From a virus: a DNA stretch of 60,754 bases. Shown here piece after piece: positions 9,623 through 60,073 of the stretch (position 1 is the first letter of the stretch; each line of letters starts with the position of its first letter). Below the pieces are notes generated by a model. The model had not been told where the DNA came from, searched no databases, and saw only the letters and a program-made list of their open reading frames with translations. Position numbers and translations under genes: made by a program. Location of the stretch: the IMG/VR virus record IMGVR_UViG_3300042527_000444, positions 1 through 60,754 of that record; one strand, written 5' to 3'.

Positions 9623-10225
9623 TTATCCATACCATTCTTTATTTTTATTAAATGTAGAGCCAGTAAACTGAAACCATATAGTAGAACTATATCTATCACC
9701 TTTAAAGATTGTGGACACTTCATGCATATAACCTTCGTTTCCAGGGAAAAAGATTAAACTATTAGGATCTGGTTTAATGTTTAAATTAAATTTTGGAAAA
9801 CAAATTTCTCCACCAATATAGTCATCGTTAATGTAATATATTACTGCAATATGGTTTTCTTCACTTGACAGCGTGTCTACATGTGCATCCAGGAACATGC
9901 CTTGTCTAAATTTAATTAAATTAAGTCTATGTTTGTCTACTGGATTGATCTCTACACCATATAAATTTGTGCACTTTTCATAGGCAAGTGTAAAAACTTT
10001 ATTTAATATTTTAACAATTTCTTCTGGTAAATCGTCATGGAAAACAGATTCAGAATCCCATGGTTGTCGTCTCCACATCTTATTATTTTTTACATAATCA
10101 AGTATAATTTTATGTTCTTCTTCAGACAAAACATTTCGTATGTATTGTATATTTTCTTCAGAGTCTCCTATTTTGGCAACATTATTTAAATAAATGTCAT
10201 CTTTTTCAGAAGGATCGATAATCAT
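9623..10225 (-). CDS. 2-oxoglutarate/Fe(II) oxygenase, prolyl-4-hydroxylase-like (copy 2)
   Basis: The 200-residue tandem paralogue has LDAHVDTLSS (His-x-Asp), GYMHEVSTIFKGDRYS (His and Arg) and YYINDDYIGGEICFP. The N-terminal block NIQYIRNVLSEEEHKIILDY aligns with IHITENVLSEEDHKKLLDY of copy 1, so the whole protein is duplicated. Iron and cosubstrate residues are intact, so it should be active. It is the first gene after a TGGTAAAAT promoter 6 nt before its ATG, suggesting separate expression from copy 3. Confidence 0.88.
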   Translation of the reverse strand: MIIDPSEKDDIYLNNVAKIGDSEENIQYIRNVLSEEEHKIILDYVKNNKMWRRQPWDSESVFHDDLPEEIVKILNKVFTLAYEKCTNLYGVEINPVDKHRLNLIKFRQGMFLDAHVDTLSSEENHIAVIYYINDDYIGGEICFPKFNLNIKPDPNSLIFFPGNEGYMHEVSTIFKGDRYSSTIWFQFTGSTFNKNKEWYG

Positions 10226-10266: not shown

Positions 10267-10920
10267 CTAATATTTCAATTGTTGGTTATAGATCTCACGA
10301 AGTTCTGTTGTTCCTAAAAATGTAGAACCAGCAAACTGAAACCTCATTGGAAAGGTGTATCTAAATCCTTCTAAAACCTCAAGTACTCCGTGAACATAGT
10401 TTTCGTTACCAGGAAACATAATTAAACTATTTGATTTAGGTTTAATTTTTAAATTATAATCTGGAAATTCTAATTCTCCGCCTTTATAGTTATCATTAAT
10501 ATAATACATACAGACAATATGTTGGTGTTTTTGAGCGTCTGTATCTATATGGGGGGTCATCTTACTGCCCCTGCTCCACTTAGTTAAAAGATATTCACCC
10601 ATAAAATTATCATTTGCTTCTATATCTATATCATAATAATCTATACATTTTATTCTAGCAGTTTGAAATATTTTTTTTAAAAGTTTAAGAATATTTTCTG
10701 GAATTGCTTCTTTATGGGTTCTTTCGGTGGTCCATGGCTCTTTAATCCAAATTTGATTAGAATTATTTACAAAATAAGATAATGTTTGATATTCTTCATC
10801 AGATAAAAAATTATCTACAATATATACATTTTTTGCAGAACTTCCTAACTTAGCAACATTTTTTAAATAAATTTCATCTTTTTCTAAATCAAGACGTTTT
10901 CTAAAAACTTCTTCATCCAT
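10267..10920 (-). CDS. 2-oxoglutarate/Fe(II) oxygenase, prolyl-4-hydroxylase-like (copy 3)
   Basis: The 217-residue protein has MTPHIDTDAQ (His-x-Asp), NYVHGVLEVLEGFRYT (His and Arg) and YYINDNYKGGELEFP. N-terminal KNVYIVDNFLSDEEYQTL aligns with the same region of copies 1 and 2. The first residues EIYLKNVAKLGSSAKN closely match DIYLNNVAKIGDSEEN of copy 2, so copies 2 and 3 are the nearest pair. Iron and 2-oxoglutarate ligands are all present. Its start overlaps the stop of the upstream gene by one base. Confidence 0.87.
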   Translation of the reverse strand: MDEEVFRKRLDLEKDEIYLKNVAKLGSSAKNVYIVDNFLSDEEYQTLSYFVNNSNQIWIKEPWTTERTHKEAIPENILKLLKKIFQTARIKCIDYYDIDIEANDNFMGEYLLTKWSRGSKMTPHIDTDAQKHQHIVCMYYINDNYKGGELEFPDYNLKIKPKSNSLIMFPGNENYVHGVLEVLEGFRYTFPMRFQFAGSTFLGTTELREIYNQQLKY

Positions 10921-15009: not shown

Positions 15010-16431
15010 CTACCTGCAGATTGTAAAGTTATATGTATTTTCCCATGCCGTGATGTCTTTTTCATCATTCAATAAAGGCTGTCCCTTTATGTTTAAACTT
15101 GTATTTAGTAGTATTGGAACCCCAGTCATAGTATACCAATTAGATAGAACCTCGTATAGACCTGGATGCTGTTGTCTATTGACCGTCTGCACCCTTGAGG
15201 TTCCGTCTTTATGAACAACAGATGGTATTTTGTCTGGCCTTAAGCATTTTACAGCATACTGCATGTATGGCGATGAAAATCTCATGTCAAACCATTTATC
15301 AGCGTGTTCTTCCATAACTACTGGAGCAAAAGGTCTAAATAGTTCTCTTTTTTTAATAAGATTAACTTTATCTTTTATGAGTGGGTCTCTAGGATCAGCA
15401 AAAATTGATCTATTGCCTAAAGCCCTAGGACCATACTCTGCTCTTCCTGTTGCTACTGCTGCCACCTTATCTCTAATTAAACTAGTAATAATTTGATTTA
15501 CTGGATACTCCCCGCCTAAATCATGACCAAGGTATGGGCTTTTCCAATTTAAATGCTTTCCATAAAACGCTGCTGCTGCACCAAGAGATGATCCTGCGTC
15601 TCCAGGATTGGGCATAATCCATACATCATCAAACATTCTCCAAAGCATCGTATTCGCTGCACAATTTAAAGCACATCCCCCCATAAAAACAAGATTGCGC
15701 TTGCCTGTAAGTTTTTGTGCCATCGACATAAAGTTTACTAATCTATTTTCATATACCCGTTGTACTGCTGCTGCAATATCAAACTTATCTTGTTCTGTAA
15801 TGGGCATATCCCAATCAAAAATGCCTTTATGAAAGTTATATTTTTGTTTTTGTAAGTCTGGGAAATATTCATTTACCTTAAGAAAATATTTTGACCAATC
15901 TCCATATGCCGCCATGCCCATAAATATATATTCTTCTTCATTAGGTTTTAGTCCAACTAACTGCGTAAATGCCGAATAAAATAATCCAAAACTAAATGGA
16001 TAATTTTTTTTATAAACAGATTTTATATCTGATCCTTGACCCACCCAAATACTTGAAGTGTTATATTCTCCGATTGCATCTAATACAACTATGACCGCAT
16101 CATTAAACTTACTTGTATAGTACCCAGCGCAAGCATGTGAATAATGATGATTAAAATATTTAATTGGTAAATCCATTGGGATATTCGGCTTCCAATCAGC
16201 AGCCCCACCCTTTAAAAATATTCTTGATCTTTTCAACTGAGGATGCTCGTAGTATGCAATATGTGTTGGCGTCCCATAATTTAAGAGATCTAGGTAAATA
16301 TCTTTATTGTTATACCAGTCATTTTTTTGCTTGCTGTACCTTTCTGCATGTCCAGAAAATAAAATTTCTCCGTCTTTAATTAAAGATACAGAAGCGTCAT
16401 GAGAAGTTTCATTTATTCCAAGTATTATCAT
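15010..16431 (-). CDS. Carbamoyltransferase (NodU/CmcH/TobZ family)
   Basis: The 473-residue protein opens MIILGINETSHDASVSLIKD, the ASKHA-fold start of the family, with the metal-binding histidines in YFNHHYSHA near residue 114. The C-terminal YrdC-like part shows TGRAEYGPRALGNRSIFADP and FRPFAPVVMEEHAD, strongly diagnostic. The enzyme uses carbamoyl phosphate and ATP to O-carbamoylate a hydroxyl on a sugar or antibiotic (NodU acts on Nod factor, TobZ on tobramycin). It is shorter than the usual 520-600 residues. It lies among glycosyltransferase- and oxygenase-like genes, suggesting surface polymer or peptide modification. Confidence 0.9.
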   Translation of the reverse strand: MIILGINETSHDASVSLIKDGEILFSGHAERYSKQKNDWYNNKDIYLDLLNYGTPTHIAYYEHPQLKRSRIFLKGGAADWKPNIPMDLPIKYFNHHYSHACAGYYTSKFNDAVIVVLDAIGEYNTSSIWVGQGSDIKSVYKKNYPFSFGLFYSAFTQLVGLKPNEEEYIFMGMAAYGDWSKYFLKVNEYFPDLQKQKYNFHKGIFDWDMPITEQDKFDIAAAVQRVYENRLVNFMSMAQKLTGKRNLVFMGGCALNCAANTMLWRMFDDVWIMPNPGDAGSSLGAAAAFYGKHLNWKSPYLGHDLGGEYPVNQIITSLIRDKVAAVATGRAEYGPRALGNRSIFADPRDPLIKDKVNLIKKRELFRPFAPVVMEEHADKWFDMRFSSPYMQYAVKCLRPDKIPSVVHKDGTSRVQTVNRQQHPGLYEVLSNWYTMTGVPILLNTSLNIKGQPLLNDEKDITAWENTYNFTICR

Positions 16432-16432
16432 T

Positions 16433-16519
16433 TTAATAAATATACCTTCTATTATTGTCTGCCTTTTTTATTTTACGAATTAAAAAATAAAGTTTAATTT
16501 TTTTAATTATTTTTTTCAT
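16433..16519 (-). CDS. 28-residue basic peptide gene
   Basis: A frame too short for ORF callers: MKKIIKKIKLYFLIRKIKK then ADNNRRYIY. ATG 16519 overlaps the stop of the oxygenase gene (ATGA) and has AGGAG five bases upstream; the stop lies just before the carbamoyltransferase ATG. The coupling and a good ribosome-binding site favour real translation. It is strongly cationic and probably helical. It could be a coupling peptide that carries ribosomes into the carbamoyltransferase gene, or a membrane-active peptide. Confidence 0.45.
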   Translation of the reverse strand: MKKIIKKIKLYFLIRKIKKADNNRRYIY

Positions 16520-17187
16520 GCTTCTCCTGTCGAATAGACCATTTCTCTCATATTATGATACCAATGAGGCAAGGAATACCTAGAACCGCTTGTTATTGGA
16601 TATACTTCGTGAACATATAAAAAGTTAGAAGGAAAAAAAATAATACTTCCTGCAGGAGGCTTAATTTTTATTTTAGAATTTTGAAACTCTATCTCTCCAC
16701 CCTCATAGTCATCGTTTAGATAACTTACAGTGGAAAGAATCCTACTGCTAATGCCGTGATCAATATGTGCAGGCAAAAATCCGCCAACTTCGTATCTTAA
16801 TAAATGAATGCTGAATTCTCTATTTTTTATATTTTTTCCACAAAAGGGATAAAGTGTGTTTGCATAATGATTGGTAGCAAAATCTAAAGATTCATATAGT
16901 TTTTTGGATATACTTAGTTGCTCATTAAAATAATAATCGCTAGGCTTTATGGCATGCCGTGGGGGTAAAAACTTTTGCCAACAAAAAGTTTCCATAGTTT
17001 TAGCGCTTTCATTTTGCCATGGCTTCCATGGCTTTATATTAGTAAAAGATGTTCCATGTTCTTTATTCTCGTATCTTTTATCTAAAGAGTTAAGGTCTTC
17101 TATAATTTGTCCAGGTTCTTTAATTACATTTTTATATAATACTAAACCAAGATCTAAAATTTCATATTCTAGCAAGAGGATATACAC
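16516..17187 (-). CDS. 2-oxoglutarate/Fe(II) oxygenase, prolyl-4-hydroxylase-like (copy 4)
   Basis: The domain is complete: FLPAHIDHGI (His-x-Asp), YVHEVYPITSGSRYS (His, Arg) and YLNDDYEGGEIEF. Residues before about 225 codons from the end (upstream of 17187) run into the neighbouring gene and look spurious, so I place the start near GTG 17187; TTG 17175 is also possible. That makes a protein of about 223 residues, overlapping the gene at 17162 by 26 nt. It lacks high identity to copies 1-3 outside the core, so it is an older paralogue. Confidence 0.82.
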   Translation of the reverse strand: MYILLLEYEILDLGLVLYKNVIKEPGQIIEDLNSLDKRYENKEHGTSFTNIKPWKPWQNESAKTMETFCWQKFLPPRHAIKPSDYYFNEQLSISKKLYESLDFATNHYANTLYPFCGKNIKNREFSIHLLRYEVGGFLPAHIDHGISSRILSTVSYLNDDYEGGEIEFQNSKIKIKPPAGSIIFFPSNFLYVHEVYPITSGSRYSLPHWYHNMREMVYSTGEA

Positions 17188-17758
17188 CAGCCTTCCATAA
17201 GCCTGGATTAGGATGATAATCTGGATCTGCATGTTGTGGCAGACTAGTATGCATAAAAAGCGCTGTAAATCTTTCACCACGGGTAACTGTAGTTATTCCA
17301 TGAATATATTCTGTTCCCGCTCCTGGAAAAAATACTGCAGAATACTGTTTTGGTTTATACTGAAAATCTTGGTTTGGAAAATAAATTACTCCACCATCAT
17401 AACTTTTTTCATCACTTAAATAAATAATTGTACTAAACTCAATAAAAGATTCGGGGTCTTGTGCATCAATATGTAGTCCGCCCTTAGTTCCAGGCACCCA
17501 GTGAGATCCAAAACCTTTAAACACATATATTGGATTTACAAATCCATTTAACGCTTTGTGCATTTCGTTAGATTTTTTCCCATATCTTATCATTATATCT
17601 TGTACCGTTTTGTTGTATGGTAATGAAGTTCCGCCATATCTATCAGAGTAATACTTTGGGTATGGATTTTTTTCTGAATTAGGGTCTAGTTGTTGCTGAA
17701 TTAGAGTCGCTGCATCATCTGGTGTAATAAAATTTTCTATAACTGTTATTCTATGCAT
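17162..17758 (-). CDS. 2-oxoglutarate/Fe(II) oxygenase, prolyl-4-hydroxylase-like (copy 5)
   Basis: The 198-residue protein has GGLHIDAQDP (His-x-Asp), EYIHGITTVTRGERFT (His, Arg) and the intervening IYLSDEKSYDGGVIYFP. The N terminus IENFITPDDAATLIQQQ matches the helix that opens this family. AGGAGATAATT precedes the ATG, with a TATAAT box at 17770-17775 directly upstream, so the leader is only a few bases long. Iron and cosubstrate ligands are intact. Confidence 0.85.
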   Translation of the reverse strand: MHRITVIENFITPDDAATLIQQQLDPNSEKNPYPKYYSDRYGGTSLPYNKTVQDIMIRYGKKSNEMHKALNGFVNPIYVFKGFGSHWVPGTKGGLHIDAQDPESFIEFSTIIYLSDEKSYDGGVIYFPNQDFQYKPKQYSAVFFPGAGTEYIHGITTVTRGERFTALFMHTSLPQHADPDYHPNPGLWKAGVYPLARI

Positions 17759-22118: not shown

Positions 22119-22532
22119 TTAATCCTTATCCCAATCAGTATCTACTGGCTGCTCTTCTGGCATAGCACCATCTGGTTTTTTAGCAAGTCTTGCTCTAACT
22201 TCATCAAGTTCTGCATCAAGTTTATCTTCTGCCATTCTAATTTCTGAGTCTACTTTTTTATTATCCACTTGTGCTTGCATAATATCTTTTGCTCCACTTT
22301 GCCCAATCAATAAACCAGCAAGTGTTCCTGTGATAAATGTCGCTACTGATCCCAACACATTGAAGAACATCTTGTCGTTTTCTGACTGTGCTCCAATTGG
22401 TTGGGTTACAAATATAAGAGCGTACAAAATTCCTAACGATGTCGCTAATAAAATTGTTCCAAGCGTTATGCCAAGAATAAACTTAAGTCGTGCGTCAAGA
22501 TCCTGCGGTGTTAATCTTTCTTTTTTACTCAT
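22119..22532 (-). CDS. Two-helix membrane protein with coiled tail, holin candidate
   Basis: The 137-residue protein has two transmembrane helices (ITLGTILLATSLGILYALIF and VLGSVATFITGTLAGLLIG, about residues 22-41 and 60-78) and a long charged helix (IRMAEDKLDAELDEVRARLA) before an acidic tail. Position between the endolysin and the lipoprotein gene, a shared operon and this topology make it the best holin candidate in the window. It overlaps the lipoprotein gene by 8 nt. Confidence 0.6.
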   Translation of the reverse strand: MSKKERLTPQDLDARLKFILGITLGTILLATSLGILYALIFVTQPIGAQSENDKMFFNVLGSVATFITGTLAGLLIGQSGAKDIMQAQVDNKKVDSEIRMAEDKLDAELDEVRARLAKKPDGAMPEEQPVDTDWDKD

Positions 22533-22710
22533 CCTGTTTTCCTATCAAGTCTTTTGTACAAGTTCCTGTAGCCTCACATATAGGTGGGTTACACTCCGCC
22601 TTTTCCCAGTTTGCTGGATCCTGGCAAGGATAGCGATAGTGACCGTCATACCCGCAGCCACCAAGGCCTAATACAAGTATACACGATAATAAAATATGAG
22701 GAATCTTCAT
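22525..22710 (-). CDS. Phage lipoprotein
   Basis: The 61-residue protein starts MKIPHILLSCILVLGLGGC, a lipoprotein signal peptide with lipobox LGGC, followed by GYDGHYRYPCQDPANWEKAE and a Cys-rich end (CNPPICEATGTC). This arrangement recurs in pelagic phages as a small secreted lipoprotein of unknown role; a link to lysis (spanin-like) or superinfection exclusion is possible. The mature part has four or more cysteines that could form disulfides. Transcribed from a TGGTATAAT box with a leaderless ATG. Confidence 0.8.
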   Translation of the reverse strand: MKIPHILLSCILVLGLGGCGYDGHYRYPCQDPANWEKAECNPPICEATGTCTKDLIGKQDE

Positions 22711-29108: not shown

Positions 29109-30140
29109 TTATTGATTATGATCCTTTTTATACCAAGAATATGCTAATTCAGCCCAAGCATACTGATATGCAGTCCCCTCATGTATGCCATCTCTTGCGT
29201 TGATTGTAAAATTATCATTTTTATTTAACAATATGTACTCAGCCATTAAATCCTGAGTTAATTTTATATCATCTTTAGTCCTAGAAATGTTTTTAAATGA
29301 ATCCAAGTCTGTTTGATCTAAAAACCAATTTGTGCTTAAGTTATGAGAGAATATATATAATTCTATATTATTTGCTTTACAAAATGTTTCTAGCATCATT
29401 AAATATTGATACACATATATAAATCTTTCAGCATGTATTAAGTGTTGCGTTTCTGGAGGCTTTCGTTCCCCTGCCCATACAGGTCTTGCTGCTATGTTAT
29501 CATCTTCTGCATTTAGCGGAACTGTATGATGCCAACTAGGAAATGTTTTTAAAAAATTAAATTCTTTTGGAAAATGAAGAACACGATCTTTGTAAATAGG
29601 CATTGAGTAAAATCTTGATAAATTGGGTAAATTTATAAATATTGTATCTGGCTTTGAATAAGTATCAATATATTTAAAGATATCCGCAACAATTTCAAAA
29701 GTTCCTATTCCCGTAATTGCTAAATTATAATAACCAGAAACTTTTTCTTTTTCTTTTATTTTATTATAAACTATCCATGGCCAAATTTCATTATTGTAAA
29801 GTCCAACACCATAAGAATTTGAACATCCAGAAAACAATATGTGCTTTCCTTCATGTTCTTTTTTAAATTCATCAGATCTAAATAAAAGTGAATTAACCTG
29901 AAGGGGGTCTGGAGAATCTACATAATCTAAAATCCATGGTTGGTGTTCTGCTAGGTGCTCCAAAGTTTGATATGTTAGTCTATTTTGAGAAACGCTTCTA
30001 ATCTCATCTATGCTTTTATTAAATGAAAATACTAGTTCTGGAAAAGAAAATCCTACTAAATTTTTATTGAGTGGATTTTCTACTCTTTCTCCGATGTTTA
30101 CATCTACTTCAGGGATATTGTGATATTTTAAGGTTTTCAT
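29109..30140 (-). CDS. SGNH-hydrolase-like protein (paralogue of the previous gene)
   Basis: The 343-residue protein has ILFSGCSNSYGVGLYNNEIW and the terminal ARDGIHEGTAYQYAWAE with Asp-x-x-His. DIFKYIDTYSKPDTIFINL parallels its neighbour almost residue for residue. Both are longer than ordinary SGNH esterases and have an N-terminal extension with HLAEHQPWILDYVDSPDPLQ. A TATAAT box with ATG after 6 nt gives a leaderless start; the upstream stop codon serves as the TG of the extended -10. Confidence 0.6.
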   Translation of the reverse strand: MKTLKYHNIPEVDVNIGERVENPLNKNLVGFSFPELVFSFNKSIDEIRSVSQNRLTYQTLEHLAEHQPWILDYVDSPDPLQVNSLLFRSDEFKKEHEGKHILFSGCSNSYGVGLYNNEIWPWIVYNKIKEKEKVSGYYNLAITGIGTFEIVADIFKYIDTYSKPDTIFINLPNLSRFYSMPIYKDRVLHFPKEFNFLKTFPSWHHTVPLNAEDDNIAARPVWAGERKPPETQHLIHAERFIYVYQYLMMLETFCKANNIELYIFSHNLSTNWFLDQTDLDSFKNISRTKDDIKLTQDLMAEYILLNKNDNFTINARDGIHEGTAYQYAWAELAYSWYKKDHNQ

Positions 30141-32364: not shown

Positions 32365-32673
32365 TCATCTGGTTATATATTTAAGAGCAGACACTAAATT
32401 ATTAATAGACTCCGCTGCAGTATAGTATAAATTCTTTTTACCCCTGTCTGACTTGTCTACATTTGCCATCCATGTAGCCTTTAAAGACATTTTAGAGGCT
32501 ATTGCTTGAAGTCTAACTATTTCTAGTGTAGCCACTTGCATGGGAATATCTGGCTTTAAAATAATCTTTGCTATTGTTGTTAAGGCAGTGGTAAACTCTT
32601 CATCTTTCATGTATTCAGCAATTTCTACAAGACCATTTATTTGCTCAAGTGTTGTTTTTTGTTCATCAAGCAT
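32365..32673 (-). CDS. Hypothetical helical protein
   Basis: The 102-residue protein is all-alpha, with segments LEQINGLVEIAEYMKDEEF, LTTIAKIILKPDIPMQVATL and KNLYYTAAESINNLVSAL. It resembles helical phage proteins that pair with helicases or polymerases, but no family is recognised. It overlaps the oxygenase gene upstream by 8 nt and ends in an untranslated gap of 34 nt before the nuclease gene. Confidence 0.55.
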   Translation of the reverse strand: MLDEQKTTLEQINGLVEIAEYMKDEEFTTALTTIAKIILKPDIPMQVATLEIVRLQAIASKMSLKATWMANVDKSDRGKKNLYYTAAESINNLVSALKYITR

Positions 32674-33484
32674 TGTTATTTTTTCTTTCTATAGCATCTT
32701 GATATCTTGCCTCTAATTCTCTTATTTTAGCCAGCCGTATTAATCCATCTTCTTTTTCTAATTTTTCCATTTTTTCTTGCCATGCATTATTATATTCATC
32801 AAATTTACTTTTTTCTTTCCACTCTTGGAATCTAATTTTTCTGGCTTCTGGGTCACGTGCTGGAATATTTAATTCATCAAAATCTTTTTGAACTGCAAAG
32901 TGTGCTGTCCAAACCTCACAGTTATCGTCTTCTTTTAATAGAATAGGATCTCTCCAATGAATTGTACCTGCCCCCCAGAAAAGCAATAAATCTCCATATT
33001 CCAGATCAAAACGATAAAGTTCTCCATTAACATCGATAACTATTGGCCAACTAATATTAGCATCTAGTTGATAATCTATTGTTAATTTAGTAAAATAATT
33101 ATCTGAATCAAAATGTGGTGGAAGTTTGGGTGATATTGCAAGATCTGTTTCATTTCCTCTGTTTTCAAATGCATTTGGGTTATGCTTTTTGTTGTAAGAA
33201 AGATAACTGTTGTGTGTCATTTTAACTTCTTCTCCAACAAAATCAGACGCAAAATCTTCTATTTTTTTTAACAATTTACCAGCAACTTTTAGTTCTATTT
33301 GTTCTCTAGCAAGTTCTGGAAGAACTAGAGGGGAGTAAAAACCACCTGGTGGCAAACCTTTTCCATGATTTATTAATTCTTTTATTTCTTTAACCTCGTC
33401 ATCAGAAAAAAATCCTTTTATAACATGGGGGATGACATCTTCATATTGTCCGAATTTTTTTGGTTTATATGCTGCGTTTATCAT
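32666..33484 (-). CDS. 2OG-Fe(II) oxygenase-like protein in the replication block
   Basis: The 272-residue protein has an iron-binding HFDSDNYFTKLTIDYQLD (His-x-Asp), TIHWRDPILLKEDD (distal His, Arg) with GDLLLFWGAGTIHW between, and KMTHNSYLSYNKKHNPNAFE early on. It resembles phytanoyl-CoA or procollagen-lysyl type oxygenases more than the P4H-like copies. The C-terminal third is a Lys/Glu-rich coiled coil (KMEKLEKEDGLIRLAKI). The leaderless promoter TGGTATAAT at 33491 begins its transcript. Substrate unknown. Confidence 0.75.
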   Translation of the reverse strand: MINAAYKPKKFGQYEDVIPHVIKGFFSDDEVKEIKELINHGKGLPPGGFYSPLVLPELAREQIELKVAGKLLKKIEDFASDFVGEEVKMTHNSYLSYNKKHNPNAFENRGNETDLAISPKLPPHFDSDNYFTKLTIDYQLDANISWPIVIDVNGELYRFDLEYGDLLLFWGAGTIHWRDPILLKEDDNCEVWTAHFAVQKDFDELNIPARDPEARKIRFQEWKEKSKFDEYNNAWQEKMEKLEKEDGLIRLAKIRELEARYQDAIERKNNNA

Positions 33485-49938: not shown

Positions 49939-50579
49939 TATACCTCTTCCAGGCTAATATTAATATTCCAAAAATCAAAATTACTACCGCCTCTTTTAAC
50001 TACACTATAACTAAAATCTGTAAAATACATTTGTAATAATTGATTATATTGTGGTAAGTGTGCATATGCATCTGAGTTTTTCCCAAAATTTGAGTATTTG
50101 TCATACGCAAGATATACCCAGAATGGCCCCTTATGTGTTTCATACCAGTCTAATAACTCTACCCCTCCAGCACCTCCGTCAGTCGTATATTCTAAATTAT
50201 TAGATCCAGCGTGTGGAGATATTCCAGTTGTTGCATTAAATTCTGGAACAGTAAAATATGATCTAGATGGAAGCATTTGCCACGAAGTAGTTATTTGAAG
50301 TTTGTCTGCTATATGATAAGATCGCATTCTTCCATTAATCATTCTTTCTCTTTTTTCAATTCTAATAGGCTTAAAGTCAATATCTTGCCTATTATCATCA
50401 GACAATATTAAAAATTGATTATATAAAGATGTATTTGTTTCTGATCCTGGGTCTTGTCCAACCTCAAGCCCATTTGGAATATATAAACCATTAACTAATG
50501 TGCCAGAATTATTAGACCATAACATGGCCTGTGGGCGTTGATACTTACGCCTTCCTGTAATATAACTAGCACTTGACAT
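49938..50579 (-). CDS. Distal tail (Dit-like) protein
   Basis: The 213-residue protein is in the position of Dit, between tape measure and hub. It contains SYITGRRKYQRPQAMLWSN, PIRIEKRERMINGRMRSYHI and YFTDFSYSVVKRGGSNFDFW. Size and order agree; the beta-rich C-terminal DFSYSVVKRGG is typical of distal tail proteins that connect tube and tip. Sequence evidence is weak, so the call rests mainly on synteny. It overlaps both neighbours by one base. Confidence 0.6.
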   Translation of the reverse strand: MSSASYITGRRKYQRPQAMLWSNNSGTLVNGLYIPNGLEVGQDPGSETNTSLYNQFLILSDDNRQDIDFKPIRIEKRERMINGRMRSYHIADKLQITTSWQMLPSRSYFTVPEFNATTGISPHAGSNNLEYTTDGGAGGVELLDWYETHKGPFWVYLAYDKYSNFGKNSDAYAHLPQYNQLLQMYFTDFSYSVVKRGGSNFDFWNINISLEEV

Positions 50580-53500
50580 TATATCCTATTACTCCTTAAC
50601 CTCTTTGAATCTACCTGCTTAATTTGTGTCATGACTGCTCTTGCAATTTCTTCTGGATTAGCATCAGATCTTACATTTACTGCCACGCTATAATTATACA
50701 CTGAGGCATCTGAGTATGTTCCGTTATTGATTGCTTTCATTTTATCAAGGCCAAAACTATCTACTGCATATCTGCTCATCACAAATTCTCCAGGGGTTAG
50801 CATTGATGGAATTACATCTGTTCCAATTACTGGGCCACCTACAGCAAATCTCTTAATTAGTCCGCCAGATGCTTTACCTGAAGGCCAATTAGCAAACTGA
50901 GAGGCTGCTATTGCATTTCCACCAAATTTCTTTAAATCTGCTGCTGCCTTTGCCTTTGCTGCTGCATCTGCCTTTGCTTTTTCTGCATTTGCTTTAGTAG
51001 ACGATGCTATAACCTTATTTGCTGCATTAATAACCTTAGCATCTGCTGCTGCCAAAGAATGTCCAAAATCGCTAGGCGTTGCGCCCTTACTTAAACTTTG
51101 TGTAACTTTTTTATTGTAATCATTTTTTGCATCAACTAAATTAATTGCATTAATGACCTTTTGATCTGCTGCTGCTAAAGCATGGCCCCAATCACTAGGA
51201 CTTGTTCCAGGCGTTAAAGATTTTGCAACTAACTTATCATATTCAGATTTTGCTTCATTTAAATATGGAGTAAATCCATTTACATCTCTACCAGTATAAT
51301 CTTTTTTATTTCCATCATTTGCTTTGCCATCGCCATTGTTTGTTTTATCTTTTCCGTTGTCTGTAATCGGACTAGTTGGCAAGTCATCACTAGTATCTTC
51401 ATCTTTTTTCCTAATCGCCGAAGGATCCCAATTATCTGGTATTCCGTCTGGTGTACCATTATTTCCGCCAGTACTGCCACCAGTGCTTCCACCCTCATAA
51501 ATAGTAATAATTCTATGAGTTGTTATAAATTCTCTTTCTAGACTTTTCCAATACTTTACTATATCTTCAACAATATCAAGTGCTGCTTTCATTGCATTAG
51601 TATATTCATCACTTGCTGTTTTTGCAAGATCAATTCTATTTTTTTGCTCTTCCCACTCAAGTCTAGTTTTACCAAGTACAGTAAGAGACTGTATTAACTC
51701 TCTCTTCTTTGCTTCTTCAATTCTTACTCTTTCTTGTGCTGGCTCTAATTCTGCTTCTTCGATTTTAAATATTTTATCTCTTAGTCCCTTAATTTGATCT
51801 TCAATTTGTGCACGAGTATACCCAAGAGTATTTCTTACATTTGCTAATTCGTTTTCTTTAGCAGCCTCAAGAGATTTTTGCTGTGCATCAAGAGCATCAG
51901 ATGCTTGTTGCGTACGAATATCTTGTGCTGCACGAGCAGCAGCAGAAATGTCGCCTTGAGATAATGCGTCAGCAAGAGTTAACTGACCCTTTTGTTGTCT
52001 TGATATCTGCTCGTTAAGAGATCTTAAAGAATCTAATGCTTCAAATCTAGCATCATATTTATCATTAATATCTTTTTCTTTATCTTCAATTTCAACTAAT
52101 TGTGCTTCCCAATCATCAATTTGATATTGCAGTCCAGCAATTTTATCCTGTGCTTTTTCAATAACATCTTGATCGCCCATTGTTGTTTTTTGGAAGTCAA
52201 TCTCAATCTTTGCTTCCATAGCAGAGAATCTTTCCATGGCCTTATCAAATCCATTTTGAAATACAGACTCTTTAAACTCTATACTATCAAATATTTGTTG
52301 TAGTCTTTGCTGAAATGCAGGCCCCCATTGACCATTTTTAGCCATCTCTTTAAGATTTTCATCAGACATAATGGCCATCTGCTCTATGGTTGAAAATCTC
52401 TTTGACTCTAAAGTTTTGCGTAAAGCGATTTCTTTTTGTGCGTTTTCAATATCTTGCTGAACTGCCTTTTTAGCATCAGTCTTTTTTTGCTCTGCTTGAA
52501 CTTTTTTATAAAGATCGATTAATTTCTTTGCACTCTTACTATTTCCTTCAGATGCAATCATTGCAGCAAAAGCAGCATCTGCTATTAATTCGTGTGCCTC
52601 TGCAACTCCGACTCCAGCCTCTCTTAAAATATTGTATGCTTTAGCCTGATCCTTTAATTCTTGTTGTTGACGCAATAGCGAAGATTGGAAATCTCCAGCA
52701 ACAATTGAGTTAAGGGCTTCCTGTATAGTTTTAGCATCTTTTTTGAGTCCTACAATATTTCCCTTATTATCAAACTTAAATAATGAATTTTTTCTTTTTT
52801 CATATTCTTTTGGATCCATGCCAACAATTAACTCTATAAAGTTACCTTTGGCTCCTAATTTAGTTAAATCTTGCTCTATACCGCCAAAGAAATCAATTTT
52901 CTTTTTGCCACCAAATAAATTGTCTAAAACCTTGCGAGATGCAGACCAACCCTCAGTAACCTTGATTTGATTTTTGCGAACATCCCTTAACTTCTTTACA
53001 AGTTCATCTAATGGGGATGAGTCTACTTTTCCTCCTCCAGAAGAAGGACCGCCCTTTGATCCAACAGTTGTATCTGTAGAGACCTGGGTTACCTTTTGTG
53101 CAGAAGTTATGTAATAATCAATTGGTTTTTTACCTGGATTTTGTTTTAGCCAGTTTTCTAATTCTTCTTTGTTATTGCCTTCAAGATTTGCAATTGTAGT
53201 CAATGTTTGCAAATATACCTTTTGCTGAACTGGATCTAATGAATCAAAATACTCTTGATCTTTTCTTAATGCTTCCATCTCTTCAGTTCCAAGAATAGTT
53301 GCAGCAACCTCTAAAGAAATCTTGCCCTTTTGTTCATTTATTTTATCTATAATTCCTTGTAGTTTTTCTGCTGCTTTTGGATTTTCTTGATAATACTTAA
53401 GAGCAACATCAATATCTAATACATTAGAAACCTTGGCAATATCTGAAAATAAGTCTAAATGCTTTCTTGCTTCTTCTGGACTTTTTGTTTCTATTTCGGC

Positions 53501-56500
53501 AATAAACTTTGCTGCAGTCTTTTTATTTTTAAACATAGAAGCAATACCCTGAACTTCGTTGGCAAATGTACCACCAAACTTTCCAATTATATTAATTACC
53601 TTGCTTAATGTTTTGCTATCTTTGCCAAACATTTCCATCATATCAATTAATTGCATTGGATCAATATTGCCAGTTGCTAACTGCATTTTTAAGGTATATT
53701 GTTGCTCTTGTGACACTCCAGAATCCTCAATCAATGTTTTTGCAAGAGGTGCGACATCCTCTAAAGCAGTACCCTTATACTTCTTTGTTATCGCTTTATC
53801 TACACCAGTCATAAGGGCTTCTCTTGTTGCGCCCCTAGACTTCTCAAACTGTGTCTGTATGTCAGTAACTGTTTTACCATTTTCTAAAAGTAAAGCGTTT
53901 CTATTTTTAATATATTCGTTGGTTAGTCTTTCTGCCTCAGCCTGATTTCCAGCAGCCCTGGCATTTTCAATTTTCTTTTCATACTCTAAATCTAATGAGT
54001 CTATCATTTCTTGTTGCTGTTCAAGTGCAACCTTGTTCATTGCAACAGATGCTCCAGAGGCTTCACCAATCTTACGTTGTCTTTCTTTTCCACCAATAAT
54101 GCCACCAGCAACTCCGCCAATAATTCCACCAGCAATTGCTCCTAAAGCAGTTCCAATAATTGGCACTGCAGAACCTACAACTGCACCTGCCAGAGCGCCT
54201 GCTGCTGCTCCACCAAGTGCTCCACCACCAATCTGCCTTACTCCAGTTGCGTTAATACCTCCTGCACTACGTGCTTTTTCTGCAGCGAGTCCTGCTCTTG
54301 CACGAGTTTCTTCAATCATTTTAACTCTTATTGTTAGTGGATCTTTTATTAAGTTCTCTCCATTAGGTCCAAGTAGTTCTATTAATTTTGCATTTACCTG
54401 AATTCCAAAACCATAATCTCCAAGTTCTCTTCCTATATTTCCAGCAATAGATCTAGCCTGTGCTGGAGTTAATGAACCAGATATAACTCCTGTTACTAGT
54501 TGATTAGTTAGGTCTGCCTGAGCCTGCTTTTTTCCTACCGCTTTAATATTTTGACCAACTGCAGAAAGTGTAGCCTTGCCAGTTTCTGATTGAACAAAAC
54601 TTTCTCCAAATGTTGTTTTTCCTGGCTTAATGTCAAACGGAGAAAGCCCTTCTGATCTTCTTCTTCTCATTACTTCACCAGCACTTACAGTTCCCGCAAA
54701 CTTACTCAACTCCATTATTGATTGTGAACTTGAGGCTGTAGACTCCACTAATTTCATCATTGAGTCTTGTGCTTTATCAAAAGCCATTCTTGTTGAAATT
54801 ATCGCATAGGATAGTACGCCAAGTGCTGCAACAACACCTGCAATCTTTGCTGGCATCATGGCAAGCATTGACAATACCATTAAAGGCATCATTAGTTGCT
54901 GAGAAACTTCTCCAACTTTTCCTGGCGCCATTGAGCCTGCTGCTGCTGCCATAGATAATCCCATTGCTGCTCCACCCATGCCCATTTTTTGTTTTGGCTC
55001 GGATCCATCTGCTGGAGTTGGTTTTCTAAATCTACCAAAAAACCCTCCACGTCCACCATTTCTACCGCCACCAGTATTTCCTCCAGCACCTGCTCCTCCT
55101 GCTACAAACCCAGTTATTGTAGATTGTTGATATGCTCTCTTTGTTGCAAGTTCCTGTAATCTTGCCTGTCTCTCTAATTGCCTACGTAAAGATTTTTGTG
55201 CAGGATCTATTGGCCCAGTTCCATATAGTGCTGCTCTTGATGCTGCAGCCTTTTGTGCTTGAGTTCCTTGTACTGTTGCAGCACCTAACTGCTGACCAGC
55301 AGCCCTAGCATCATCTACATATTCTTTAAGACCTATGATGGCTCCAGATGCTATATCTCCGCCGACCTTCTTTGTTACTCTTGATGGTGAGGCAACTTGT
55401 GCTCTTTCCATCATTCCCTCTACCATGCTCTTTTCTGCAAAGTCTACTAAACTAAATCCAGTTCTCTTATAGAATGTAAACCTATCTCCACCACGACGAA
55501 TCTTCATTCCTCCAACATTAACTGCACCCTTACTTCCTCCGCCAGCAACTGTTGAAAGTCCTGCAGCCTTTTGTGCTGCCTGAGATATATTAATTCTTGC
55601 TTCTCCTGCTGTTAGTGCAAGTTGTTCAAATGCCTGTACTAACTTATTATTTGCACCCATCTGTCTCTTAGCATGATCATACGCCTGCTTAACATGTACA
55701 TCTGTAATTTTAGTATTTGAATCAAGGCTTGTCAGATAATCCTTCATATGTGTGTCCAAGATTGCTAAATCTTGAGCAACATCCTGCATCTTCATTCCAC
55801 CATTACGTAATGATATCTTCCATCTATCCAAGCCTCTCTTATCCCAGTCAGCCATGAATTCGCCCTTGCCGACACCACGTCCGCCAGCCTTCATAAGATT
55901 ATTCATTGAAACTGGCTTGCCTCTTGCATCTAGTTGAGATGACATACCAGTTGTTATACCAAGTTTTCCATAAAGATTTATTTTAAGCGTATTAGCAAAT
56001 TTCATTGCAACAGCCTCTACTGCCTTCATTGCCCTATCGCTAATAATTCCTGCAGGCATTCTCTTAAGCATATTTGCCAAATCTAGTGCACCTACAGTAC
56101 GCATTCCGCCAATATGAGAGAAGTCTCCAGCGCCAGCAGTTCCAACCTTAAACTGTTGCATTACTCCGCCTGCAATCATATGGCTAATTGCTGGCTTATT
56201 GCGTGGATCTTGTGCTGGGCCTGCTGGAATAACTGCCTCACCAGGAGTTAACATTGCAGGTACTGTATCTGTTCCTTTTGCAAAATAGAATGGCTTTACT
56301 TTTTTAGTTCCATCTGCAAAGCCCTTTCTGTTTTTACCAACAACAGGTCCGCCAAAACCTCTTTGTGCAGCAATCGCTCTTTGATAAGCACTTGTTAATG
56401 CATTAAGTGCAGCAATTTCAGATGTAAATGTTTGAGATAGTTGTGTGTGGACCTGATTTAAAGAAGATGCTACGGCTGATGCCTTCAATTGTTCTGTTGT

Positions 56501-58300
56501 TAAATAACTAGTCTGATCTCCTAGTATTTTTGAAGATTGCCCAGTTCTATTAAATACACTTTTAATATTAACAAAAAGTTTAATAATGTTAGCCAAACCA
56601 TTAGCCAACAAACCGAAGGTCATTAAAAATATAGGTCCTATTCCACCTAATAAAGTAGTTAATATTACTACAAATTTCTTTGCGCCGTCGCTAAGATTAT
56701 TAAACTTTTCTAAAACATTTCCTACAAATTCTACTATGGGAGTTATTGCCTTTAAAAATTCTTCTCCAACTGGTGCTATGGCTACCTTTAGATCTTCGAT
56801 AGTTTTCTTAAACTTATAAGTTGTTGACTCTTCAACTCTTGCTAATTCTCTCTCTGAAAGAATTGCAAGTTCTTCAGTTGTTGCTTTAGTTAACTGAAGT
56901 ACACGACTTGCCTGGTTTCCCTCTTGAATAACATTTTGAAATAATGTTGATAAACGAGAAAATTGAAACTTTCCAAACAATTGTTCAATTGCACGAGCAC
57001 GATTTAGTGGATCTAGGGTGTTTAATGCTTGAGCAAAATCTGTTACTACACCCTTAACATTGCCCTGGTTTCCTTCAACAATACCTTTAATATTAATACC
57101 CATTTCTGCCAACATAGCACTTGCTTTTTCTGTTGGATTAATCAAGGCTGCTAAACCAGACTTTAAGGCGTTAGCGCCCTCTGATGCGTTGATGCCACCT
57201 TCTTTCATAGCAGTAAGGAAGAATGCTAGGTCCTCAACATCTCCACCTAATTGTTTAACAACTGGGCCTGCTTTAGGAATCGCAATAGTCAAATCTTCAA
57301 TAGATACAACTGTTTGGTTTTCAACAGAGTTTAAAAAGTTAATCTTTTTAGTCAAGTTTTCTGCTGATACAGCAAAGGCATCAGTTAAAGATATTGTTGT
57401 TTCTAATGCCTGTTCTTGTTCAACTCCACCCAATACAGAGAGTCTAGTTGCTTCATTTATCTGTGCAAGAAGATCTGCACCCATCTTACCAGAAGCAGCA
57501 GCATCTGCTGCCATCTTCATAGTACTTTCAACACTAACTCCGTACTTGGTAAATTCTTTGGCAAGAAGTTTAATGTCTGTAAGCATCTTGTCAGTTTCTT
57601 CAGTAGTAGTAAATAATTCGCCGTAAACACGCTTAAATCTAATTGCCTGCTCTTCCATCGCCATAAATGTTTTTGCAGCAGTAGTGCCAAGCATGGTAAG
57701 TGGAATTGTAAAACCAACCATTAACTGGCGACCAGCCCACTGAGTATTCTTACCGAAGTTCAACATATTTGTTGAGCCTTGCTTTAATAATTGATTAAGC
57801 AATGCCTGTCTTTGTGCAGCAATCTGTGTCTGTGTCCCAAGATTTTGCATATCTAATGCAAGTGGTCTAACTGCAATAGCCTTCATGGCGCCATTTGCAT
57901 CACGGCCCATTTTTATATATTGTGTTTGTAAGTCTTTGACTCTTTCTCTTGCTACCTTATTTATGGTGTCAAATTCAGACTGAAAAAATTTACCAAATGT
58001 TTTTGTTGCTCCCATTGAATAGCGGTAATAATCCCGCATTGATAATTTGTTTTTTTCAAGGGAATTTGTAAAAGACTCAGTTGTAGTTTTTACATTTTGC
58101 ATTGAGGCAGAGAATTTGCCTGTAGCATTTAAAGAGTTTATTAGGTTTTGTTGCATATTGGCGGAGACGGCTGCTGCTGCAGCGCCACTCTTCGCCATCG
58201 AGGAATGGAAGGCTGATATCTGTTTTTGTAAAAGTTTGATACTGGCTAATGCTTCAGACGTATCTATATTTACGTGAATATTAGATTGAACATCAGCCAT
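50579..58300 (-). CDS. Tail tape measure protein
   Basis: The 2573-residue protein is the tape measure: residues about 200-370 contain the TP901-type core (FMAMEEQAIRFKRVYGEL, EDLTIAIPKAGPVVKQLGG). Then come hydrophobic stretches near residues 1120-1175, a glycine/alanine-rich stretch (1357-1405), and long coiled coils. The motif VPAMLTPGEAVIP (residue 675) recurs as VIPSMLTPGEFVM (residue 2490), a frequent tape-measure element. Near the C terminus a segment of about 38 residues repeats twice (PGTSPSDWGHALAAADQK, GATPSDFGHSLAAADAK). At about 0.15 nm per residue its length predicts a tail of roughly 380 nm. Confidence 0.95.
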   Translation of the reverse strand: MADVQSNIHVNIDTSEALASIKLLQKQISAFHSSMAKSGAAAAAVSANMQQNLINSLNATGKFSASMQNVKTTTESFTNSLEKNKLSMRDYYRYSMGATKTFGKFFQSEFDTINKVARERVKDLQTQYIKMGRDANGAMKAIAVRPLALDMQNLGTQTQIAAQRQALLNQLLKQGSTNMLNFGKNTQWAGRQLMVGFTIPLTMLGTTAAKTFMAMEEQAIRFKRVYGELFTTTEETDKMLTDIKLLAKEFTKYGVSVESTMKMAADAAASGKMGADLLAQINEATRLSVLGGVEQEQALETTISLTDAFAVSAENLTKKINFLNSVENQTVVSIEDLTIAIPKAGPVVKQLGGDVEDLAFFLTAMKEGGINASEGANALKSGLAALINPTEKASAMLAEMGINIKGIVEGNQGNVKGVVTDFAQALNTLDPLNRARAIEQLFGKFQFSRLSTLFQNVIQEGNQASRVLQLTKATTEELAILSERELARVEESTTYKFKKTIEDLKVAIAPVGEEFLKAITPIVEFVGNVLEKFNNLSDGAKKFVVILTTLLGGIGPIFLMTFGLLANGLANIIKLFVNIKSVFNRTGQSSKILGDQTSYLTTEQLKASAVASSLNQVHTQLSQTFTSEIAALNALTSAYQRAIAAQRGFGGPVVGKNRKGFADGTKKVKPFYFAKGTDTVPAMLTPGEAVIPAGPAQDPRNKPAISHMIAGGVMQQFKVGTAGAGDFSHIGGMRTVGALDLANMLKRMPAGIISDRAMKAVEAVAMKFANTLKINLYGKLGITTGMSSQLDARGKPVSMNNLMKAGGRGVGKGEFMADWDKRGLDRWKISLRNGGMKMQDVAQDLAILDTHMKDYLTSLDSNTKITDVHVKQAYDHAKRQMGANNKLVQAFEQLALTAGEARINISQAAQKAAGLSTVAGGGSKGAVNVGGMKIRRGGDRFTFYKRTGFSLVDFAEKSMVEGMMERAQVASPSRVTKKVGGDIASGAIIGLKEYVDDARAAGQQLGAATVQGTQAQKAAASRAALYGTGPIDPAQKSLRRQLERQARLQELATKRAYQQSTITGFVAGGAGAGGNTGGGRNGGRGGFFGRFRKPTPADGSEPKQKMGMGGAAMGLSMAAAAGSMAPGKVGEVSQQLMMPLMVLSMLAMMPAKIAGVVAALGVLSYAIISTRMAFDKAQDSMMKLVESTASSSQSIMELSKFAGTVSAGEVMRRRRSEGLSPFDIKPGKTTFGESFVQSETGKATLSAVGQNIKAVGKKQAQADLTNQLVTGVISGSLTPAQARSIAGNIGRELGDYGFGIQVNAKLIELLGPNGENLIKDPLTIRVKMIEETRARAGLAAEKARSAGGINATGVRQIGGGALGGAAAGALAGAVVGSAVPIIGTALGAIAGGIIGGVAGGIIGGKERQRKIGEASGASVAMNKVALEQQQEMIDSLDLEYEKKIENARAAGNQAEAERLTNEYIKNRNALLLENGKTVTDIQTQFEKSRGATREALMTGVDKAITKKYKGTALEDVAPLAKTLIEDSGVSQEQQYTLKMQLATGNIDPMQLIDMMEMFGKDSKTLSKVINIIGKFGGTFANEVQGIASMFKNKKTAAKFIAEIETKSPEEARKHLDLFSDIAKVSNVLDIDVALKYYQENPKAAEKLQGIIDKINEQKGKISLEVAATILGTEEMEALRKDQEYFDSLDPVQQKVYLQTLTTIANLEGNNKEELENWLKQNPGKKPIDYYITSAQKVTQVSTDTTVGSKGGPSSGGGKVDSSPLDELVKKLRDVRKNQIKVTEGWSASRKVLDNLFGGKKKIDFFGGIEQDLTKLGAKGNFIELIVGMDPKEYEKRKNSLFKFDNKGNIVGLKKDAKTIQEALNSIVAGDFQSSLLRQQQELKDQAKAYNILREAGVGVAEAHELIADAAFAAMIASEGNSKSAKKLIDLYKKVQAEQKKTDAKKAVQQDIENAQKEIALRKTLESKRFSTIEQMAIMSDENLKEMAKNGQWGPAFQQRLQQIFDSIEFKESVFQNGFDKAMERFSAMEAKIEIDFQKTTMGDQDVIEKAQDKIAGLQYQIDDWEAQLVEIEDKEKDINDKYDARFEALDSLRSLNEQISRQQKGQLTLADALSQGDISAAARAAQDIRTQQASDALDAQQKSLEAAKENELANVRNTLGYTRAQIEDQIKGLRDKIFKIEEAELEPAQERVRIEEAKKRELIQSLTVLGKTRLEWEEQKNRIDLAKTASDEYTNAMKAALDIVEDIVKYWKSLEREFITTHRIITIYEGGSTGGSTGGNNGTPDGIPDNWDPSAIRKKDEDTSDDLPTSPITDNGKDKTNNGDGKANDGNKKDYTGRDVNGFTPYLNEAKSEYDKLVAKSLTPGTSPSDWGHALAAADQKVINAINLVDAKNDYNKKVTQSLSKGATPSDFGHSLAAADAKVINAANKVIASSTKANAEKAKADAAAKAKAAADLKKFGGNAIAASQFANWPSGKASGGLIKRFAVGGPVIGTDVIPSMLTPGEFVMSRYAVDSFGLDKMKAINNGTYSDASVYNYSVAVNVRSDANPEEIARAVMTQIKQVDSKRLRSNRI

Positions 58301-58322: not shown

Positions 58323-58652
58323 TTAATTATTTACAAGATTTCCAACAAGAGATGCTGCTTCTGATAGTTTGATTCCAGAAGCCTCTTCTACAATCTTATA
58401 AACTGTTGGAAGATCTAAAATTTCTTCTAGAGCATCCATATCTTCTGATAACTCTGGCTTATATTGTTTCATTGCAATAGCAACGCATTCCATAAGTAGA
58501 GTCATAGACTTTTCATTATCGTCTGCCACTCCTGCGATACCCTCGAACTTCTTCATAAAAGGACGGAGTAAAGAGATCTTAAGTGGTCTTACTTTTATTT
58601 CTGTGCCATCAATTAACTTAATTGACTTTTCTTCGTGCACGGTTGTAGCCAT
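58323..58652 (-). CDS. Tail assembly chaperone, short form (gpG-like)
   Basis: The 109-residue protein (TTVHEEKSIKLIDGTEIKVR..., LKISLLRPFMKKFEGIAG) is homologous to the N-terminal half of the gene at 58696 (matching INLIDGTQIYITPLKIKYLR and TVYKIVEEASGIKL). In lambda a short G and long G-T chaperone come from one gene by a frameshift; here two separate genes supply them. TGGTATAAT and AGGAGG upstream predict stronger translation of this short form, matching the usual excess. Confidence 0.75.
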   Translation of the reverse strand: MATTVHEEKSIKLIDGTEIKVRPLKISLLRPFMKKFEGIAGVADDNEKSMTLLMECVAIAMKQYKPELSEDMDALEEILDLPTVYKIVEEASGIKLSEAASLVGNLVNN

Positions 58653-58677
58653 TAGTCCTCCTTATAAGGTTTAGTTA

Positions 58678-58686
58678 ATTATACCA
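58678..58686 (-). promoter_or_regulatory. Extended -10 promoter of the short chaperone gene
   Basis: TGGTATAAT on the - strand (58678-58686) is 25 nt before ATG 58652, with an AGGAGG ribosome-binding site in the leader. It is one of the few extended -10 boxes followed by a real leader. Confidence 0.55.
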
Positions 58687-58695
58687 TAAAGGACT

Positions 58696-59382
58696 TTATT
58701 TTTTAGTTAAATCCTGATAGTCTAGTCCCATACCTATGCCAAACCCAGCCTTTTGTGCATTTATACCCTGTAAGGCTGTAATATCATTTGCATTTTGTGC
58801 CTTACCCTTACTAAATACTCTAGCCTTCATATCTTCCCAGGCATTGTTCTTTTTAGAGTTTTTGTCTAAATCTACACCCTGGATTGCTGCTAAAAATTTC
58901 TTTTCTGAATAATCTAACTCTCTTTTTATATTAAGTGTTGCTGTTAATTCTGGCATAGACATAGATGTTTCCAGTTCCTCATAGTCTTTCCATATACCGA
59001 GCAAAAATACCTCAGATTCTAACTTTACTAAATCAAGATCCTCCCATGAAGCACCGCTATCTGTGGCCTGCTTTTTGACTTCTTCTTCTGATTCTTTGTT
59101 TATTTTTATACCTGCTGCAATATCTACAATTTTATATATTGTTTTTAAATCTATACTATCTTCTAAATCTTCAATAGTATTTATTTTTGGATAATATTGT
59201 TGCATTGTTATTAATGCACATCTTGCTAATGCTGCGATTGCTTCATCATCTCCATTTGATGATTTTACAGTTTCAAATTCTTGCATAAATTGTCTAAGAT
59301 ATTTTATTTTTAGCGGAGTAATATATATTTGTGTTCCGTCTATCAAATTAATATATGCACTCTCATAAACCTCTGTAGCCAT
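58696..59382 (-). CDS. Tail assembly chaperone, long form (gpGT-like)
   Basis: The 228-residue protein has the same N-terminal domain as the short gene, then a C-terminal extension (VFLLGIWKDYEELETSMSMP, ELDYSEKKFLAAIQGVD, ITALQGINAQKAGFGI) ending in DYQDLTKK. This is the size and plan of the frameshift product GT, whose C-terminal domain contacts the tail tube. A TGATATAAT box with ATG after 6 nt implies leaderless translation, probably weaker than the short gene. It lies between tail tube and short form, as in other siphophages. Confidence 0.75.
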   Translation of the reverse strand: MATEVYESAYINLIDGTQIYITPLKIKYLRQFMQEFETVKSSNGDDEAIAALARCALITMQQYYPKINTIEDLEDSIDLKTIYKIVDIAAGIKINKESEEEVKKQATDSGASWEDLDLVKLESEVFLLGIWKDYEELETSMSMPELTATLNIKRELDYSEKKFLAAIQGVDLDKNSKKNNAWEDMKARVFSKGKAQNANDITALQGINAQKAGFGIGMGLDYQDLTKK

Positions 59383-59388
59383 ATAATT

Positions 59389-59397
59389 ATTATATCA
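59389..59397 (-). promoter_or_regulatory. Extended -10 promoter, leaderless (TGATATAAT, 6 nt, ATG)
   Basis: TGA (59395-59397), TATAAT (59389-59394), six bases, ATG 59382. It follows the terminator of the tail-tube gene. Confidence 0.6.
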
Positions 59398-59400
59398 AAC

Positions 59401-59436
59401 AGAAAAGCCCAGCCTTTTCAAATATGACTGGGCCTT
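59401..59436 (-). terminator. Terminator after the major tail protein gene
   Basis: GCCCAG (59407-59412) and CTGGGC (59428-59433) form the stem with a 15-nt loop; the - strand 3-prime side is TTTTCTG. It separates the tail-tube transcript from the chaperone genes. Confidence 0.7.
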
Positions 59437-59452
59437 CTGATATTAAGTTGTA

Positions 59453-60073
59453 TTATGCTGGGATAGTACGATCTACGATCTTACCATACGAAGCAGCGTC
59501 ATTTGGAAGAAGGCGGAATGAAACTTCAAACATTGTAGCCTCATCACGCTTTGCAGATACAGTTACATTCTCAATTGAGAGTGCACGGTATGCTACATAA
59601 ACTCTTTCAATCTGATCCGAAGCAGCACATTCTCCAGTTCCTGGACCAACCGCTACCAAACCACGCTCGACTGGGCATTCGCCGATGTCTCCTGCAGAAA
59701 GGTTTAATGTTGGGTTGCCTGAGACTGTTGTCAAATCGCCATCGCTGCTTGCAAGTGCGAAAAGAAGATTCTCAAGTGTTGACTCAGCAAATGTAGTATT
59801 TAGGTTAACCTGCATACCTTGCTTGTACAACTTAGCAACGTCAAGAACCTGGTCTACCTGCACTTCACCGAAGTCAGGCTGGAATTGAATCTCAAGACCA
59901 TTCATTGTGTAACCAACGTTACGGAAGTCTGCGTGATCTTCAAGGGTATCCTTGTAAGATGTGCCTGCTACGTACGCTGGTAAATCACCATCAGCAAGTA
60001 CGCCGTCCTCATATGTGAAGAGAGCGGCAGCACCAACGATAATGTTATTGCTTGTACCACGAGTATAAGCCAT
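59453..60073 (-). CDS. Major tail tube protein
   Basis: The 206-residue protein contains YTRGTSNNIIVGAAALFTYE, LEDHADFRNVGYTMNGLEIQ and the strand-rich C-terminal ATMFEVSFRLLPNDAASYGK, the typical plan of a siphophage tail tube subunit. It precedes the chaperone pair and tape measure in the usual order. The ribosome-binding site AGAGGTGAAAT and its own terminator fit an abundantly made protein. An inverted repeat (AAAAGGC/GCCTTTT) lies in the leader between 60102 and 60142. Confidence 0.8.
   Translation of the reverse strand: MAYTRGTSNNIIVGAAALFTYEDGVLADGDLPAYVAGTSYKDTLEDHADFRNVGYTMNGLEIQFQPDFGEVQVDQVLDVAKLYKQGMQVNLNTTFAESTLENLLFALASSDGDLTTVSGNPTLNLSAGDIGECPVERGLVAVGPGTGECAASDQIERVYVAYRALSIENVTVSAKRDEATMFEVSFRLLPNDAASYGKIVDRTIPA

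Follow-up and report, generated by a model that had tools for sequence, protein, structure and literature searches.

The window, which here means the whole stretch of DNA that was analyzed, is IMG/VR virus record IMGVR_UViG_3300042527_000444, 60,754 bases in length. On its minus strand, a likely tail protein gene is followed, in the order of transcription, by a long gene, a short gene, and the gene for the tape measure protein. The long and short genes sit between the major tail protein and tape measure genes, as tail assembly chaperones in the G/GT role do, and the features of the region are as follows:

59453..60073, minus strand: likely major tail protein gene, directly upstream of the long gene; PHROG 2175, E 2.4e-32
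59400..59439, minus strand: terminator-like hairpin between the tail protein gene and the long gene; fold -20.2 kcal/mol, z -4.12
59389..59397, minus strand: extended -10 box TGATATAAT; the long ATG lies 6 nt downstream
58696..59382, minus strand: putative long tail assembly chaperone gene, 228 aa, an N domain fused in frame to T
59092..59382, minus strand: N domain of the long gene; PHROG 10504, E 2.3e-20
58699..59061, minus strand: T domain of the long gene; PHROG 10474, E 8.2e-15; aligns with the -1-frame T of cultured phages
58678..58686, minus strand: extended -10 box TGGTATAAT, belonging to the short gene, whose ATG follows after 25 nt
58657..58662, minus strand: Shine-Dalgarno AGGAGG of the short gene, read from the sequence
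58323..58652, minus strand: putative gene for a short tail assembly chaperone, 109 aa, N domain without T; shares the N domain with the long gene
50579..58300, minus strand: tape measure protein gene, 2573 aa, directly downstream; PHROG 10030, E 2.2e-101, and Pfam PF10145, E 1.7e-25

The tail protein gene also has a weak match to PHROG 885, ‘major tail protein’ (E 0.001), and its position is homologous to that of the annotated major tail protein in phage EGole and others. Elsewhere, the same phage carries genes resembling those for a tryptophan halogenase, a carbamoyltransferase, and two 2OG-Fe(II) oxygenases (273-1877, plus strand; 10267-10920, 15010-16431, and 16516-17280, minus strand).

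A preliminary description of this DNA had claimed that the two genes share an N-terminal domain and that only the long one bears a C-terminal extension, and both claims hold. The two proteins align by BLASTP with 45% identity over 98 aa (E 1e-26), a comparison of the N domains with hhalign, using the long and short family profiles, spans 97 columns (E 5.8e-34), and PHROG 10504 is matched by long and short proteins alike. The extension (T) is restricted to the long gene and matches the T domain that Streptomyces and Rhodococcus phages encode in the -1 frame. This is the pattern of a two-product chaperone: an N domain in both products, and a T extension on the longer one.

The G/GT chaperone role is suggested by the agreement of three lines of evidence: gene position, homology to proteins annotated as chaperones, and fold matches, the last of them weak. 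The modeled N domain resembles 3KLU, YqbN of Bacillus subtilis (Z 5.7, rmsd 4.0, 84 residues), and 2OB9, the HK97 tail assembly chaperone (Z 4.1, rmsd 4.9, 83 residues), both weak, model-based matches with Z values of a size that can arise by chance for helical folds. Confidence in the structure models is middling (pLDDT 74.3 and 72.8), and their matches in BFVD were named tail assembly chaperone. Foldseek against the PDB returned no match at E 0.001, a sequence search of solved structures gave chance-level matches or none, and no Pfam family was assigned to either gene, the matches falling below the curated cut-offs.

We collected 383 loci from six scans of viral contigs, one scan of genome contigs, 12 cultured-phage records, and the two loci of the window, and classed them by profile searches. 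Two architectures account for nearly all of them: an in-frame N+T long gene followed by a second, short N gene (DUP), and a lone N gene whose T lies in a different frame (PRF). The collection comprises 206 DUP loci, 171 PRF loci, three with an in-frame long gene at a contig edge, one with N only (Brevibacillus phage Jenst), and two from the window, read on the opposite strand; some contigs turned up in more than one scan and count as several loci, and the distinct nucleotide sequences number 132 for DUP and 131 for PRF. DUP and PRF never occur together in one locus (0/383). The short gene is present in 206/206 complete DUP loci, and an in-frame long gene without it was seen only in the three loci that stop at a contig edge. 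The lambda-like, frameshift-type G/GT layout is absent from the DUP loci, T being in frame in all 206. In PRF loci, T lies in the -1 frame in 171/171, and the overlap holds an in-phase slippery heptamer in 161/171: CCCAAAC in 80, GGGAAAC in 61, CCCAAAT in 13 (and in one more that has a second heptamer), GGGAAAA in three, CCCAAAA in two, and GGGAAAT in one. In the other ten (L083, L084, L091, L093, and L095-L100), a canonical heptamer is lacking; its place is taken by CCCGGAA, which may be a slippery site of a non-standard kind. The genome collection yielded a single locus, L175, in a MAG labelled as a cyanobacterium, which is too slight for naming a host.

The closest cultured-phage records (n = 135) belong to 127 Streptomyces, five Rhodococcus, and three Brevibacillus phages, and a search by the short protein found one place per record in 127 records. 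We examined 12 records, namely 11 from Streptomyces and Rhodococcus phages plus Brevibacillus phage Jenst. The preliminary description had proposed a comparison with related phages for an ancestral frameshift, and that layout is present in them: T lies in the -1 frame, out of frame with N, in 11/11 Streptomyces and Rhodococcus records examined. Four records (Emma1919, TunaTartare, NiceHouse, and Francesca) annotate the coding sequence as two joined pieces, and GGGAAAA stands at the end of G in the three Rhodococcus phages examined. The records of EGole (L083:2923-3144), BillNye (L092:1890-2159), and Trina (L090:1573-1830) give the T part as a hypothetical protein of its own and lack the frameshift product. 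In Jenst, the gene at L094:1336-1809 is annotated as a putative DNA polymerase III subunit gamma/tau; it matches the chaperone N profile, precedes the tape measure gene, and is probably a misannotated chaperone.

Trees bear on how often, and in which direction, the architecture changed. In a tree built from the N-terminal portion of 73 representative tape measure proteins, the 37 DUP rows form one clade (99/98), recovered in 99% of 200 bootstrap trees. Rooting this tree on the Rhodococcus phages places DUP within PRF, a layout seen in a quick tree, and the direction of change rests on the root chosen. Similarly, T from 83 rows puts DUP in one clade (support 76), and in the N tree of 83 rows the long and short copies each form a clade, with supports of 97 and 96, respectively. 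Other trees are less tidy: a first T tree needed two changes, the tail-protein tree left two DUP rows outside, and a wider tape-measure tree of 83 rows needed two changes because the frameshift-type locus L350 sits within DUP. In this last tree, the nearest sister of the DUP group containing L350 is a frameshift-type pair, L315 and L306 (support 87).

A second origin of DUP, suggested by L350, was considered and rejected. The N domain, T domain, and tail protein of L350 are closest to those of PRF loci. For its tape measure, the best matches are L359 and L356, which are themselves PRF loci, with DUP loci next; therefore, recombination fits better. For L350 we propose a crossover at the junction of the chaperone and tape measure genes. 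L350, L356, and L359 are all frameshift-type chaperone loci whose tape measures resemble DUP most after each other, and they look like natural recombinants at the border of the chaperone and tape measure genes. The claim that duplication has taken the place of frameshifting is supported by the trees and the clean split of architectures, and that split, together with the nesting of the DUP clade within PRF, supports a single conversion from frameshift to duplication in this lineage.

The reading that we favor, and consider likely, is that long and short are tail assembly chaperones, that their frameshifting ancestor was converted once to two genes, and that the ratio of the two products is probably set by initiation. 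The alternative with most in its favor concerns the source of the long copy, which might be a xenologue received by recombination from another phage, the resident gene having lost T and become the short gene. We regard this as unlikely, but several observations point that way. In the free N tree, long falls outside the group formed by short and the nearby PRF G, and recombination at this locus does occur, as in L350. The long N domain is also less like PRF G than short is. However, grouping long and short in one clade is not rejected (p 0.617) and raises the likelihood by 6.47; the faster change of long, with a mean identity of 0.528 vs. 0.66 for short, can pull it outward in the tree; and the DUP T domain is one clade within the family. 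Duplication within the lineage followed by faster change of long, or a foreign long copy, are both possible sources of the second N domain.

Long and short are only about 41% identical within one genome, as might be expected if short were a different accessory protein and long alone the working chaperone, so that the pair would be no replacement for a two-product gene. We hold this to be improbable, given that short is kept in every complete DUP locus, is the more conserved copy in 597/666 pairs, and is akin to frameshift-type G along almost all of its length. Against the frameshift-type G profile, short aligns over 105 columns with 52% identity (E 6e-50) and the long N domain over 97 columns with 43% identity (E 2.6e-36). 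PRF G of the L140-type clade is closer to short than to long in 543/555 comparisons, and among representatives short measures 98-113 aa, while PRF G (without the Rhodococcus phages) measures 101-138 aa, mostly 110-116. By these sequence comparisons, the short gene is apparently the closer heir of ancestral G, whose length, promoter, and Shine-Dalgarno sequence it has kept.

In the favored reading, the long gene also lacks the slippery site. It is a single open frame, and inspection for slippery heptamers, as the preliminary description had advised, found none that joins two frames: the sole in-phase canonical heptamer of the long gene in the window, TTTAAAA at 59149, lies in the N domain, and its -1 frame reaches a stop within a few codons. 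Among the first 171 DUP loci, 17/171 long genes have in-phase heptamers at the linker and some others, like that of the window, have them in the N domain, and one could suppose that a cryptic frameshift, an internal start, or cleavage still makes the short form from the long gene, to which the short gene merely adds. This seems very doubtful to us, as these heptamers are scattered, none is conserved at the linker, and none of those in phase is followed by a -1 frame of more than 29 codons. A working slippery site in the long gene is accordingly rejected: the heptamer of the gene in the window has no usable -1 frame, and those of the clade are not conserved. Finally, it is scarcely credible that the two-gene layout is an assembly or base-calling artefact, even if the DUP loci are metagenome contigs and 0/11 Streptomyces and Rhodococcus phage records examined have it, since 132 distinct DUP nucleotide sequences agree and the presence of a second gene coincides with loss of the heptamer and with altered start signals.

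Those start signals also count in favor of the preferred reading. In the window, AGGAGG precedes the short gene, as first described, and the long gene, first described as leaderless, has the TGATATAAT box 6 nt before its ATG. The suggested contrast in promoter and ribosome-binding site between long and short holds throughout the clade, and control genes do not show it. We compared distinct 60-nt upstream regions, using TGnTAnA[AC]T as the box pattern. Upstream of long, an extended -10 box lies at most 9 nt from the start codon in 98/103 distinct upstreams, most often at 6 nt; the remaining five have a -10-like box without an exact TGn, and a Shine-Dalgarno sequence was found in 0/103. Upstream of short, the box is present in 115/115 distinct upstreams, at 14-40 nt in 114, and a Shine-Dalgarno sequence is present in 114/115. 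PRF G has the box at 14-40 nt in 104/112 and, by the same strict rule, a Shine-Dalgarno sequence in 87/112. Within the first 291 loci, no box at 9 nt or less precedes the control genes, whether for the tail protein (0/94 and 0/70) or the tape measure (0/96 and 0/79), and after base shuffling of the long set, 0.235 of 90 upstreams would be expected to carry one. A terminator-like hairpin stands ahead of long in 110/117 distinct regions (nine when shuffled) and ahead of PRF G in 107/117 (eight when shuffled). A general promoter scan was uninformative, with 64 found vs. 58.4 expected, and the terminator rule of the general scan missed the hairpin at 59400..59439 because its loop is longer than the rule allows.

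When an extended -10 box lies 6 nt before an ATG, the usual transcription start falls at that ATG, and a leaderless mRNA is therefore predicted for the long gene. In five more open frames of the window, all on the minus strand (32666-33484, 29109-30140, 22525-22710, 9623-10225, and 4688-4969), the ATG follows an extended -10 box at a distance of 6 or 7 nt, and one of the five matches ferrochelatase weakly in PHROG; leaderless starts may, therefore, be common in this phage.

In general terms, the favored conversion can be rationalized as follows. The two genes would be equivalents in role of lambda gpG (short) and gpGT (long). In the ancestor, a -1 programmed frameshift at the end of G would have let a single gene yield both products, which still appears to be the case in the relatives. 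Once in the lineage, the N domain would have come to be present in two copies, of which one was joined in frame to T, without a slippery site, giving long, and the other kept the reading frame, length, promoter, and Shine-Dalgarno sequence of G, giving short. Each gene has a separate extended -10 promoter: the long mRNA would start at the ATG or within about three bases of it and be translated without a leader, while the short mRNA would have a leader and a strong Shine-Dalgarno sequence. With promoters of their own, and a leaderless long mRNA against a led short mRNA with a Shine-Dalgarno sequence, the short:long ratio is probably set by initiation. The preliminary description expected an excess of the short form; judging from the start signals, the short protein would exceed the long one, the start signals would set the ratio, and selection would have kept it.

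A broader statement of this model is one that we advance tentatively, as quite possible. Control over an essential ratio of proteins would have moved from translation elongation, by the -1 frameshift, to initiation, with a leaderless, promoter-coupled start for the scarce long product and a leader with a strong Shine-Dalgarno sequence for the abundant short one. The move would have happened once and been kept in every complete descendant sampled, and the DUP-type tape measure would occur beside either chaperone system. If so, the locus offers a clean case of one two-product gene splitting into two genes, and possibly one of leaderless translation used to keep an assembly helper at a low dose. 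A lineage that gave up the frameshift a single time, and that has relatives to either side of this change, also lets one ask whether the slip itself or only the product ratio matters.

Two known systems invite comparison. In phage lambda, a -1 frameshift yields gpG and gpGT at about 30:1, and the tail chaperone frameshift is described as widely conserved among long-tailed phages, except T4 (both from PMC5009743). With the lambda type, which includes the Streptomyces Stanwilliamsviridae and Rhodococcus phages, the present genes share the place between the tail protein and the tape measure and an N domain common to short and long products, and with the Stanwilliamsviridae and Rhodococcus phages also a homologous T extension. 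Unlike the lambda type, which uses one gene and a -1 programmed frameshift, T is here in frame, short has its own gene, and no slippery site joins the frames. The second system is that of some T4-like phages, in which a short gene and a fused long gene are described (PMC10885494, citing Vladimirov, Gautam and Davidson 2022, a study also cited in PMC12846349). As far as that layout is described, the likeness lies in a separate short gene and a long fused gene without a frameshift; we compare the layouts and do not claim membership. A literature search with partial coverage, including few subscription journals, found no report of this frameshift-to-duplication case. In contrast to the T4-like pair, the relatives here appear to frameshift, the change is placed on a tree, and the start signals are conserved. 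Thus, the two-gene solution itself was already known, and what appears to be new here is an origin from the frameshift that can be placed on a tree, together with conserved start signals that can be read.
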